Origin: a virus
Virus record (IMG/VR): IMGVR_UViG_3300025326_000005
Coordinates: 1 to 42,776 of that record
DNA: 42,776 nucleotides
Strand: one strand, 5' to 3'
The translations under genes and the position numbers were made by a program. Below are positions 28,821-41,239 of the stretch, one piece after another (the first letter of the stretch is position 1; each line of letters opens with the position of its first letter). Below the pieces are notes generated by a model that searched no databases, was not told the DNA's origin, and worked only from the letters and a program-made list of their open reading frames with translations.

Positions 28821-28977
28821 TTTTGAAATGTCAAAACCTTACTCTTTGAAATGTCAAAACTTTAGAAGGCTAAGATTTTGAATTGTCAAAACTATAATCT
28901 TTGACATGTCAAATTCTATCCTCAGCAGGCTGACAAAAAATGTCAGACAAAAATTGTCACATGACAATAAATGTCAT
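28821..28977. promoter_or_regulatory. Palindromic operator/iteron array (TTTGA..TGTCAAA and TGACA..TGTCA)
   Basis: Four sites with the pattern TTTGAwwTGTCAAA are centred near 28828.5, 28851.5, 28883.5 and 28906.5; their spacing is 23, 32 and 23. They are followed by CTGACAAAAAATGTCAG (centre 28938, again about 32 away), ATTGTCACATGACAAT (28953-28968) and ATGACAATAAATGTCAT (28961-28977), made of the same TGACA/TGTCA half-sites. All sites are dyad-symmetric. Spacings near two and three helical turns suggest cooperative dimers on one DNA face. The array ends about 70 bases before the first plus-strand gene. Confidence 0.85.
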
Positions 28978-29048
28978 CGGAAGGGGCGGTAACTCATTGA
29001 TAGATGATATAAAACTATGGCATAAGACATGCAATAGTAGTCAGTAGC

Positions 29049-30217: not shown

Positions 30218-30616
30218 ATGACTGCTACAGGCCGCACAATCAAGGTTGGTGACGTGACACTACCCGAGCACACGGACACTCTCTCATTCACGGTGCCGCC
30301 AACCGACAAGATCAAGCCTGAACAGGCTACTAGGGCCGGCGAGAAATACGAAAAGACTTTCGTGTTTCCTCAGGTATCTTCGGTAGACGAGGCAGAACTT
30401 GTTGCTCTTGAAAAGGAGTGGACGTTAGTTGAATTCGTGAATGACAAGCTCAAGAATGCCGCGCGTGCAAGTGCATATCAGAATGAGGCTGCATTGTATC
30501 GCGTGACCGAGATTTCTGCGGAGGATATCAAGGATCGTATGGTCCGAGATTTCATTCGTCTTGGTCATAGTGAAGCAGAGGCACGTGCATTGCTCGATTC
30601 TCTCATGACGAAGTAA
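30218..30616 (+). CDS. Unknown protein in its own promoter-terminator unit
   Basis: A 132-residue product, not recognised. The N-terminal half is beta-like and Pro/Thr-rich; residues about 75-130 are helical and charged (NDKLKNAARASAYQNEAALYRV, then DIKDRMVRDFIRLGHSEAEARALLDSLM). GGGAGG is seven bases before the ATG. The codon choice and G+C content look higher than in most of the genome. It sits alone between a consensus promoter and a strong terminator, as transferred accessory ('moron') genes do. A role in host takeover or superinfection control is inferred from layout only. Confidence 0.8.
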   Translation: MTATGRTIKVGDVTLPEHTDTLSFTVPPTDKIKPEQATRAGEKYEKTFVFPQVSSVDEAELVALEKEWTLVEFVNDKLKNAARASAYQNEAALYRVTEISAEDIKDRMVRDFIRLGHSEAEARALLDSLMTK

Positions 30617-30623
30617 GCTCGCC

Positions 30624-30680
30624 ATAGACCGGATATAGTTCAGTATATGAACGTGTCCGGTCTATTCTTTTTTCATTCTT
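30624..30680 (+). terminator. Strong intrinsic terminator
   Basis: ATAGACCGGA (30624-30633) pairs perfectly with TCCGGTCTAT (30656-30665), with an inner GTTCA/TGAAC helix in the loop, followed by TCTTTTTTC and further T-runs. It closes the one-gene unit started by P1. Confidence 0.92.
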
Positions 30681-30886
30681 TTTTCCAGTATTACATAATT
30701 GATTAGGGAGAGAGAGGTAAAGGTATCTCTGTCTCTCTCTCTCTCCTAGACAGGATGGTCGATATCCCACCTGCCAATGTCCTGTTTAGGTGACACTTCT
30801 CGGAGGAGGTTTTCTCTTTTCTTTTTTTTATTTTTTTTTTTTTTTAATAATAATCATAAATTATATAATTACCAACAAGCTATAAC
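30681..30886 (+). promoter_or_regulatory. Non-coding stretch with purine/pyrimidine arms and long T-tracts
   Basis: No convincing gene lies here. GGGAGAGAGAGG (30706-30717) can pair with the CT-rich tract near 30732-30749, and the same CT tract is complementary to the GA-rich leader of the P2 transcript (30935-30966). Between them TGTCCT occurs at 30778, and T-tracts of 8 and 15 bases stand at 30822-30829 and 30831-30845. The T-tracts may be terminator tails, but no good stem precedes them. Confidence 0.5.
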
Positions 30887-32342: not shown

Positions 32343-32627
32343 GTGTCTAAAAAGTCAAAGCGTCATACTCACAAGTATCATAAGGTATTAGTTGCTGGAG
32401 ATCCTGTATGGGCATGCGCACTTCCCGACTGTTCACATTATATGCCTAATCATATGAGTGAACTAGTTCCTGGTCGTGCATCCTTATGTTGGAATTGTGG
32501 AGAGAAATTCATTCTCGACAATACTAACATGAGAGAGACTAATCAGCCTACTTGTATTAATTGTTATAGAGCAACTGACTGGACTAGTAATATAGAGGAA
32601 TTCATTTCTAATAAGGTAGCCGAGTAA
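32343..32627 (+). CDS. Zinc-finger protein, two cysteine pairs
   Basis: A 94-residue product starting at GTG 32343 after AAGGAT. Residues show C-x4-C near 25-30, CWNC (49-52) and CINC (about 71-74), enough for one or two zinc ions. The N-terminus is His/Lys-rich. It shares a base with the next gene, also a zinc protein. Possibly nucleic acid binding. Confidence 0.72.
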   Translation: MSKKSKRHTHKYHKVLVAGDPVWACALPDCSHYMPNHMSELVPGRASLCWNCGEKFILDNTNMRETNQPTCINCYRATDWTSNIEEFISNKVAE

Positions 32628-37525: not shown

Positions 37526-37703
37526 ATATAAGTTTATGCGATATCTTGTCGTCTTTATGAACGGACACAAAGAAGAAATCTTCGGTTGTGATTGGATGGA
37601 TGTAAATCACATTCTGAATGAGCTAATCGTCCGTGTCGGTGTTCCACCGGACCTGATCTACATGCTGGATCTGCGAAGGACTAACAAAGGACCATTAGCA
37701 TAA
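37518..37703 (+). CDS. Small hypothetical protein ending inside a tRNA gene
   Basis: A 61-residue product from ATG 37518, overlapping the nuclease gene by eight bases; an upstream TTG at 37491 and ATG 37536 are alternatives. The last codons and the stop (TAA at 37701-37703) lie within the 5' part of the tRNA-Met gene that starts at 37689, so message and tRNA must be separated by processing. Confidence 0.65.
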   Translation: MIKYKFMRYLVVFMNGHKEEIFGCDWMDVNHILNELIVRVGVPPDLIYMLDLRRTNKGPLA

Positions 37704-37765
37704 TTGGTTAATGCACTCGGCCCATAACCGAGCTTATATAGGTTCAAGTCCTATATGGTCCACCA
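37689..37765 (+). tRNA. tRNA-Met-like (anticodon CAU) with C at position 33
   Basis: Acceptor GGACCAT/ATGGTCC, D stem GCAT/ATGC, anticodon stem CTCGG/CCGAG with loop CCCATAA (anticodon 37723-37725), T stem ATAGG/CCTAT with loop TTCAAGT, and an encoded CCA. All stems pair perfectly. The first acceptor pair is G-C, so it is not an initiator. Position 33 is C instead of the nearly universal U. It could also be an Ile-type CAU tRNA that needs lysidine modification; the sequence cannot decide. Confidence 0.9.
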
Positions 37766-37776
37766 ATATATAACCT

Positions 37777-37863
37777 GCGCGTTTGGTGGAACTGGTATAC
37801 ACAAGAGACTTAAAATCTCTCGCTAGCAATAGCATATAGGTTCAAATCCTATAACGCGCACCA
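37777..37863 (+). tRNA. tRNA-Leu (anticodon UAA)
   Basis: Acceptor GCGCGTT/AACGCGC, anticodon stem AGAGA/TCTCT with loop CTTAAAA (anticodon TAA at 37811-37813), long class II variable arm with GCTA/TAGC, T stem ATAGG/CCTAT, and an encoded CCA. It reads UUA, which appears to be by far the commonest Leu codon of this AT-rich phage, so it probably supplements the host pool. Confidence 0.95.
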
Positions 37864-40097: not shown

Positions 40098-40490
40098 ATG
40101 CCTATCATTTCATTCACTGAAAAAGACTTGCTTCGTGGAACTGTAGTTGAGCCTGCTTGGTATCGTTTGAAGATTGAAAATATTGGTGAAGCATTATCAA
40201 AGGATAAGAATTCCACTAACTACCCTGTAGAGGCTACCATTATTGCTAATGCTGATAATGGGGATGCGCGATTCGCTAACGTGCCGATTGAATGGAATTT
40301 CAATAGTAAGGCTCTCGGCTTTACTAAAGGATTTCTTGCTGCTTTCGGTGTTGAATTAAAGCCTGGAGTTAGGTTTGATCTTGCTAATGCTGCTGGTAAG
40401 GAACTCGATGTATTTATTGAGAATAAGGAATATGAGGGGCGAATCATAAACAACGTTCCTCACAAGTATCGAACTCCAAGGACTGCATAG
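40098..40490 (+). CDS. ssDNA-binding-like protein (DUF669 type)
   Basis: A 130-residue product with beta-rich body (WYRLKIENIGEAL, then YPVEATIIANADNGDARFANVPIEWNFN, and ELDVFIENKEYEGRIINNV). The layout matches the small ssDNA-binding proteins encoded after Sak4 genes (DUF669-like). It has no acidic C-terminal tip; an SSB-like tip is instead found on the 69-residue protein at 1400-1609. Confidence 0.72.
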   Translation: MPIISFTEKDLLRGTVVEPAWYRLKIENIGEALSKDKNSTNYPVEATIIANADNGDARFANVPIEWNFNSKALGFTKGFLAAFGVELKPGVRFDLANAAGKELDVFIENKEYEGRIINNVPHKYRTPRTA

Positions 40491-40815
40491 TAATATAGTT
40501 GCCAATCATATAGCTAAACATATAACCTATATGATAGCTGAAGACTTTAAACTGTAGGCCACAGTGGAGAGTGTCTGAAATGAATGTGTGGATAAAGTGG
40601 CCCACACTGGCAACTGCAACAAATAGCGTAGAATTCTGTCTATGTTTATTACACCACATAGCCTACAATATTCGATAATATTCTCCGTTGAGAATTGTAA
40701 TATGTCGGTATTGTGCCTAAAGACTAAGCAATACGTGTAATAGACATGACAGATAGGGGCGGAGCACAATGTATACTTAATTGTATATACGTGCTCCGCT
40801 CCGTTGTATAAAATT
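40491..40815 (+). ncRNA. 325-base non-coding stretch with dense predicted RNA structure
   Basis: No convincing gene is visible. AGTTGCCA (40497-40504) pairs with TGGCAACT (40608-40615) around ATCATATAG/CTATATGAT (40505-40513 with 40527-40535) and GGCCAC/GTGGCC (40557-40562 with 40597-40602). Further helices are GTAG/CTAC with CTATGT/ACATAG (40628-40666), AATATT/AATATT (40667-40682), and ATGTC/GACAT with GTATTG/CAATAC (40702-40747). AATTCT at 40632 can also pair with AGAATT at 40691. Together these suggest a folded RNA, not random spacer. Confidence 0.55.
40756..40802 (+). terminator. Long GC-rich hairpin closing the structured stretch
   Basis: GGGGCGGAGCAC (40756-40767) pairs with GTGCTCCGCTCC (40791-40802), 12 pairs with one G.U, and GTATA/TATAC extends the inside. 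The stem is far more GC-rich than its surroundings. No U-run follows in either direction, so a processing or regulatory hairpin is as likely as a terminator. It lies 13 bases before the next ATG. Confidence 0.6.
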
Positions 40816-40968
40816 ATGGCTGAAAAAATCGAAGAATTAACACTAGAAAAATTGAAGGAAGTATTCTATGTAACTATGCATTTAAGTAGAGTAGCTGATG
40901 TAGATGAATCATGGAAAATCTTCTTGAGAATTTTAAGAAAACATTGCATTATTATTTCTGAAAGGTAA
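40816..40968 (+). CDS. Small helical hypothetical protein
   Basis: A 50-residue frame starting 13 bases after the GC-rich hairpin, without a visible ribosome site. Predicted all-helical and charged. The start might be controlled by the hairpin. No motif. Confidence 0.6.
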   Translation: MAEKIEELTLEKLKEVFYVTMHLSRVADVDESWKIFLRILRKHCIIISER

Positions 40969-40975
40969 TGATTCA

Positions 40976-41239
40976 ATGACTGAAGATACTAACCGCGCGA
41001 CTGGAAAGATTATTAAAGTGCATGAAGCAGGATGGGGATTTATTTCTTCGCATGATATTGAATTTACTAGAATCTTTTTTCATTGGCAGGCTCTTGTTCA
41101 AGATACCTTGAATTTTAAGGATCTTAGGATTGGTATGAAAGTAGAGTTTACTCCTGTAAAGCATATCGATCCTGAAACAAAGAAGGAAGGCTATCGAGCA
41201 CATAAAATTCGAGTAATTGAAAACGAAGTCAAGACTTAG
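40976..41239 (+). CDS. Cold-shock-domain protein
   Basis: An 87-residue product with the cold-shock OB fold: GKIIKVHEAGWGFIS (RNP1-like GWGFIS) and RIFFHWQAL (RNP2-like), then GMKVEFTPV and a final strand. Cold-shock proteins bind single-stranded RNA/DNA and melt RNA structure. Its place beside the structured RNA is suggestive. ATG 40976 follows the previous stop by seven bases. Confidence 0.85.
   Translation: MTEDTNRATGKIIKVHEAGWGFISSHDIEFTRIFFHWQALVQDTLNFKDLRIGMKVEFTPVKHIDPETKKEGYRAHKIRVIENEVKT

Follow-up and report, generated by a model that had tools for sequence, protein, structure and literature searches.

Covarying RNA elements downstream of a single-stranded DNA-binding-like gene in an uncultured virus clade

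Positions 40,491 to 40,815 of IMGVR_UViG_3300025326_000005, a 42.8-kb virus record analysed here over its whole length (the window), raise the question of whether 325 bases with several predicted helices form one structured RNA, as originally predicted, and what such an RNA might do beside genes for DNA-handling proteins. The 325 bases are three RNA elements, here termed E1, E2 and E3, of which E1 and E3 recur independently in other viruses. The structured nature of the stretch is thus borne out, by covariation in independent relatives and by strand-specific wobbles, but the single RNA is not, because E1 and E3 occur separately elsewhere.

The locus and its relatives

The source of the window looks like an uncultured, tailed-phage-like virus, with a polymerase reading frame that spans the record ends and has distant records as its sole matches. 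Genes point rightward between ~28.9 kb and, across the record ends, 5.4 kb; those between 28.5 and 5.5 kb point leftward, and the GC skew switches near 5.5 and 28.5 kb, matching the switches in gene direction. The stretch lies in the rightward arm, in the order Sak4-like recombinase, single-stranded DNA-binding-like (SSB-like) protein, stretch, ~50-aa ORF, cold-shock-domain (CSD) protein and polymerase. Two back-to-back tRNA genes, Met(CAU) and Leu(UAA), are found in the same operon at 37689-37765 and 37777-37863. The features of the locus are as follows.

40098..40490, + strand: gene for an ssDNA-binding-like OB-fold protein, 130 aa, immediately 5' of E1
40497..40615, + strand: E1, covarying four-helix RNA domain with 15 distinct homologs
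40635..40753, + strand: E2, multibranched domain with a ~19-bp closing helix, folding z -4.7
40756..40802, + strand: E3, 12-bp GC-rich hairpin (stem 40756-40767 with 40791-40802, GAUA on the 5' side) with an internal loop and an inner stem
40817..40968, + strand: ~50-aa ORF between E3 and the cold-shock gene
40976..41239, + strand: CSD protein gene, 87 aa, Pfam CSD E 4.9e-7

The stretch had been placed between recombination and cold-shock genes, with the latter next to it. In fact, the OB-fold gene is directly 5' and the recombinase lies one gene further upstream, while the ~50-aa ORF, for which no related protein was present among the fetched loci, intervenes before the cold-shock gene. The SSB-like protein gave no match in Pfam or PHROGs; its AlphaFold2 model (pLDDT 90) has as its top PDB match PrgE of pCF10, an OB-fold protein with a solved DNA-bound structure (Foldseek E 3e-5), followed by SSBs with weak E values.

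Relatives were gathered by scanning for the SSB-like and CSD proteins, with confirmation by tblastn, together with gene-independent DNA-pattern scans, and their loci are labelled L###. They share a syntenic cassette composed of the Sak4-like gene, the SSB-like gene, a first RNA slot, an acidic protein gene, a second RNA slot, E3, none to several small genes, the CSD gene and the polymerase gene; the SSB-like gene is syntenic in all related loci and the CSD gene is kept across the viral clade. The SSB-like protein is encoded by no cultured phage in the collection searched, and a scan of bacterial genome contigs with the SSB profile found no relatives. Of 79 related loci, 73 have a small ORF rich in Asp and Glu, usually situated after slot 1 and before E3, and by the same test this ORF is missing in the window, L011, L017, L032, L034 and L090. 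Since the window has no acidic gene, E1, E2 and E3 abut there and resemble one RNA. The acidic small proteins often carry a VDMDE motif, reach ~70% D/E over 35 aa, and are possibly DNA mimics or SSB-tail mimics.

The helices originally described (an 8-pair closing stem, a 9-pair hairpin and a 12-pair GC-rich hairpin) are all present at their computed coordinates, and the folding energy check proposed with them was run: the 325 nt fold at -109.3 kcal/mol, compared with a shuffled mean of -71.2 (z -6.4; 0/100 shuffles as low), and the elements folded separately score z -3.4 (E1), -4.7 (E2) and -7.4 (E3). Many 120-nt windows of the same genome nevertheless score z < -4, so that folding energy alone is weak evidence, and the analysis relies on relatives instead, with covariation taken as the decisive evidence for structure. 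Across the clade, the median folding z in the slot downstream of the SSB gene is modestly lower than in the SSB coding sequence (-1.6 versus -1.2). Partly intergenic windows near 32401-32520, 30601-30720 and 28921-29040, with folding z < -4.8, may hold further RNA elements.

E1, a covarying four-helix domain

E1 begins ~7-18 nt past the SSB-like stop codon in the copies inspected (6-7 nt in the window) and consists of a closing helix and three further helical arms:

40498-40504 with 40608-40614, + strand: P1 closing helix; covariation in 7/7 pairs, with 100% of cells paired across the 15 sequences
40505-40513 with 40527-40535, + strand: P2 hairpin, AUCAUAUAG/CUAUAUGAU; two-sided change in 7/9 pairs, 96.9% paired
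40542-40545 with 40573-40576, + strand: P3a; two-sided change in 4/4 pairs
40551-40555 with 40561-40565, + strand: P3b, loop AGGCC; two-sided change in 5/5 pairs
40586-40591 with 40602-40607, + strand: P4 hairpin, conserved loop AUAAAGUGGC; two-sided change in 4/6 pairs, 93.3% paired

In the window fold, an eighth pair (A40497-U40615) extends P1 to the 8-pair stem AGUUGCCA/UGGCAACU (40497-40504 with 40608-40615). Pattern and gene searches yielded twelve distinct copies of E1, ten of which went into a covariance model (R1), and three more copies were then added. These three (L173, L177 and L200; 98, 56 and 46 bits) were located by R1 in loci outside model building. In the resulting 15-sequence alignment, which is fitted to the covariance model, pairing holds in 95.0% of base-pair cells, and two-sided change is seen in 27 of the 31 pairs; double-change cells number 121, compared with 36.5 in shuffles, and sliding the pairing partner by 1-3 columns lowers pairing to 32-43%. 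A MAFFT alignment of ten E1 sequences agrees (92.6% paired, 20/31 pairs, 0/500 shuffles), as does RNAalifold on twelve.

All 15 copies lie directly 3' of the stop codon of an SSB-like gene, at distances that are short and narrowly distributed, and the gene downstream varies from copy to copy; the near-constant distance to the SSB-like stop and the variable downstream gene tie E1 to the SSB-like message. Gene-independent DNA-pattern scans of viral contigs likewise recovered E1 at the SSB-like site only, the other pattern matches being without E1. On whole records, R1 finds a single clear copy in three and one in the window, with a fourth record reaching only E 0.07. An exact-pattern scan of bacterial genome contigs gave 0 matches, and searches of Rfam, plasmids and cultured phages gave no relatives.

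Within the clade the distribution of E1 is patchy. It occurs in 15 of the sampled lineages only (109 distinct SSB-downstream slots having been extracted), most members having E3 without E1, and requires 8 changes on a tree of the concatenated SSB-like and CSD proteins. Furthermore, E1 identity barely tracks SSB identity (r 0.20), the window and L026 being 80% identical in the RNA and 50% in the protein. Together, the tree changes and the weak tracking suggest repeated loss or replacement of E1, or its recombinational exchange, and the patchiness indicates that the job of E1 is dispensable or replaceable.

Dozens of nucleotides in the loops and junctions of E1 are invariant or nearly so. Most copies retain the P4 loop AUAAAG, together with the junctions UGRAG and RAAUKAA, despite changes in the helices, and the 13-nt P2 loop, CUAAACNUAUAAC, is kept in most; in L177 and L200 the P2 loop has diverged while the P4 loop and junctions are kept. 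It is possible that the P3 loop AGGCC is a kissing partner of the P4 loop: for this candidate pair, 56 of 60 cells are paired in 12 sequences, a result weakly above permutation (863/10000), and L132, L177 and L200, when inspected, deviate from it. In two loci (L027:2466-2642 and L043:3697-3873), the P3 hairpin is enlarged by ~40 nt with its own sub-hairpin, E1 being otherwise unchanged.

A conserved reading frame had been named as the finding that would speak against an RNA, and no such frame is present: in 12/12 E1 sequences checked, stops interrupt each of the three sense frames, so a protein-coding role is rejected. An apparent peptide, VSEMNVWIKWP, in the 3' half of E1 was also rejected, since its surroundings are unconserved as protein and the changes in P4 are compensatory. 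Finally, a fusion of SSB and acidic protein by readthrough or frameshifting was rejected, as the frame is open in 17/73 loci, in mixed frames, and E1 is closed in every frame.

E3 and E2

The second recurrent element, E3, is a hairpin of 12 bp in the window (-31.6 kcal/mol, z -7.4), in which an inner stem and an asymmetric internal loop lie inside an outer stem with a 5' flank of GAUA (alternatively GACA or AAUA). From 61 distinct hairpins extracted, 48 were aligned, and compensatory change is seen in 11 of the 12 stem pairs; covariation in relatives, a check that accompanied the original prediction, is present in E1 and E3 alike. E3 is nearly universal in the viral clade. With the E3 covariance model (R2), 16 of 18 related viral records have exactly one copy each and the window likewise has one (E 4e-9), and E3 is present in 53 of 63 further SSB-clade loci, with one more cut off at a contig end.

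E3 is reminiscent of an intrinsic terminator: its stem is GC-rich, and most relatives have a short, conserved run of UUU behind it, within a 3' flank of GC(C/T)UUU in which T reaches 84, 85 and 74% at +3 to +5. It differs from one in that its long loop holds an inner stem and a conserved internal-loop motif, and in a U-tract that is weak or absent: no U-rich tract directly follows the stem, and the tail in the window, GUUGUAUAAAAUU, is without a proper U-tract. A terminator scan did not list E3, the loop limit of that scan (3-8) also excluding it. The next start codon follows ~10 nt past the E3 stem in L013 and ~10-60 nt downstream in many relatives; a start codon at ~10 nt is too near for a new promoter, and transcription most likely reads through. 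The longest complement to the E3 5' arm, as would be needed for an alternative or antiterminator pairing, was 6.5, compared with 6.6 in shuffled sequence.

E2 is probably a real element, thinly supported. A single, diverged relative could be detected, in locus L011; it has its own 12-bp closing helix and shares an invariant 16-nt core (GUAAUAUGUCGGUAUU); no further E2 relatives were found, and the other pattern matches fit neither R1 nor R2. The long-range AATTCT/AGAATT contact that had been suggested falls outside the predicted fold and is unconserved in L011, the sole relative of that part, and is not retained here.

Proposed roles and alternatives

The strand that folds can be read from the wobble pairs. 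GU pairs outnumber AC mismatches 46:3 in E3 and 17:4 in E1, and because A-C mismatches are the wobbles read on the other strand, this excess shows that it is the + strand, in the coding sense, that folds. E1-E3 are most likely mRNA elements, and we infer from sequence that they are transcribed. The reading we favour, at slightly less than an even chance, is that of three cis-acting RNA structures on a polycistronic virus mRNA, with E1 shaping SSB output and E3 setting readthrough. The elements would lie on one message between the SSB-like gene and the small ORF, cold-shock and DNA polymerase genes. A terminating ribosome would cover the 5' edge of E1, which would fold once that ribosome departs; it could then insulate the SSB message or make it more stable, and gate output downstream; conservation of its loop sequences is the ground for proposing that E1 may also bind a protein or small molecule. 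For E3, the short U-tract and the start codons ~10-60 nt downstream suggest a leaky terminator, or a processing or exonuclease-blocking hairpin in a readthrough operon, which would set the flow of transcripts into the cold-shock and polymerase genes. The strong loop conservation of E1 suggests something more specific than a passive barrier. A bolder version, which we hold as a tentative minority view, is that E1 represents a new RNA class, either a ribozyme or a phage riboswitch/aptamer, which adopts a specific tertiary fold, responds to how far infection has advanced or otherwise to its state, controls the ssDNA-binding module and is the best conserved of several unrelated folded elements at one site in the clade.

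Among the alternatives, the one that survives best, although it is doubtful, is that E1 is a ligand-binding, riboswitch-like aptamer or a protein-binding operator, for example one by which the SSB-like or CSD protein autoregulates the operon. Conservation of the loops and junctions exceeds what a plain barrier needs. OB-fold and CSD proteins are single-strand binders, and the neighbouring genes encode members of both families. However, the Shine-Dalgarno of the next gene is by inspection usually outside E1, alternative pairing with an E3 arm does not exceed that of shuffled sequence, the gene downstream of E1 differs among copies, and Rfam offers no riboswitch match. It is unlikely that E3 and/or E1 would serve mainly as an RNA processing site, with E3 a signal for RNase III of the T7 early type or E1 a self-cleaving ribozyme. 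In the RNase III sites of T7 early mRNA, an asymmetric internal loop separates a long lower stem from an upper one, and the intergenic, irregular hairpin of E3 is of similar build, but its sequence is unrelated and its cleavage putative. Likewise, E1 is compact and multi-helix with conserved junctions, as might suit a ribozyme, but no catalytic core is recognised in it and no Rfam ribozyme matches it.

The idea first put forward for this locus, a free noncoding RNA comprising E1-E3 and acting with the cold-shock protein, appears quite improbable. It draws on the lack of an acidic gene in the window, where E1-E2-E3 also contain no convincing coding ORF, but a coding gene separates the elements in most relatives, E1 adjoins the SSB-like gene rather than the CSD gene, many relatives have at least one gene between E3 and the CSD gene, and the promoter scan gave no signal above chance (36 found versus 39 expected). 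No evidence for such an RNA-protein system was found. Large phage RNAs of the GOLLD/ROOL type are noncoding, several hundred nt long and ornate; E1 shares with them only that it is noncoding RNA in a phage genome, being ~120 nt and without an Rfam match.

Very improbable, too, would be an antitermination RNA resembling put of phage HK022, with E1 acting on downstream terminators such as E3. The HK022 putRNA is ~70 nt, comprises two stem-loops and lies near early promoters (PMC9378689). As with E1, it is a phage cis-acting structured RNA inside a transcript (an early one for put), and E1 precedes a terminator-like hairpin in an operon that runs rightward; against this, E1 has four helices and sits mid-operon behind the SSB-like gene, and most clade members carry E3 without E1. 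More improbable still is a role of the elements as single-stranded DNA, in a replication origin or priming site: they occur in single copy per genome beside Sak4-like, SSB-like and polymerase genes, but there is no GC-skew inflection near 40.5 kb, the excess of GU wobbles in the mRNA sense is in keeping with RNA, and the spacing from the stop codon is tight. Chance folding without function, to which the low z-scores in many other genome windows might point, has negligible probability, being refuted for E1 and E3 by covariation far above shuffles and slid controls, with E2 weakly supported.

Compared with known families, Rfam 15 at gathering threshold returned two tRNAs only in the window, with one spurious miRNA up to E 5, and 0 matches in 20 related loci. 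Literature searches gave no recognisable match, the nearest by gene context being the STAXI motif (RF01728). That motif, a pseudoknot repeated in tandem, is found close to genes for proteins that bind single-stranded DNA or otherwise handle DNA (Weinberg et al. 2010, PMC2864571). E1 is likewise a structured RNA beside ssDNA-binding and DNA-handling genes, but forms a single four-helix domain rather than a repeated pseudoknot, and the STAXI model finds nothing in the window or related loci. By these comparisons, E1 and E3 are new families of a familiar kind, namely cis-located structured phage RNAs. They add two RNA element families supported by compensatory change to an uncultured virus clade with no representative among the cultured-phage records searched; their covariance models can be used for further searches, and the loop conservation of E1 makes it a testable aptamer or catalytic candidate. 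In addition, the presence of differing folded elements at one fixed site in related viruses constitutes a natural experiment on the function of intercistronic RNA.

Several such elements were observed. In loci whose slot 1 is without E1 (L061, L109, L123, L089, L116 and L012-L016), a GC-rich hairpin lies just after the SSB-like stop, and its loop can, by eye, pair downstream (GACCUA with UAGGUC, GACCUU with AAGGUC, GGCCAU with AUGGCC), so that the structure resembles an H-type pseudoknot with covariation, positioned 5' of the acidic-protein gene. Slot 1 of L055 and L101 has in common GUAAGCAYGUAAAAUGAYGGAA within a GC-rich hairpin, possibly another RNA family. Finally, a candidate H-type pseudoknot (CUGCCC..GAGCAU..GGCAG..AUGCUC) occurs shortly 5' of the cold-shock gene in one subclade (L053, L064, L077, L079, L082, L104 and L119).
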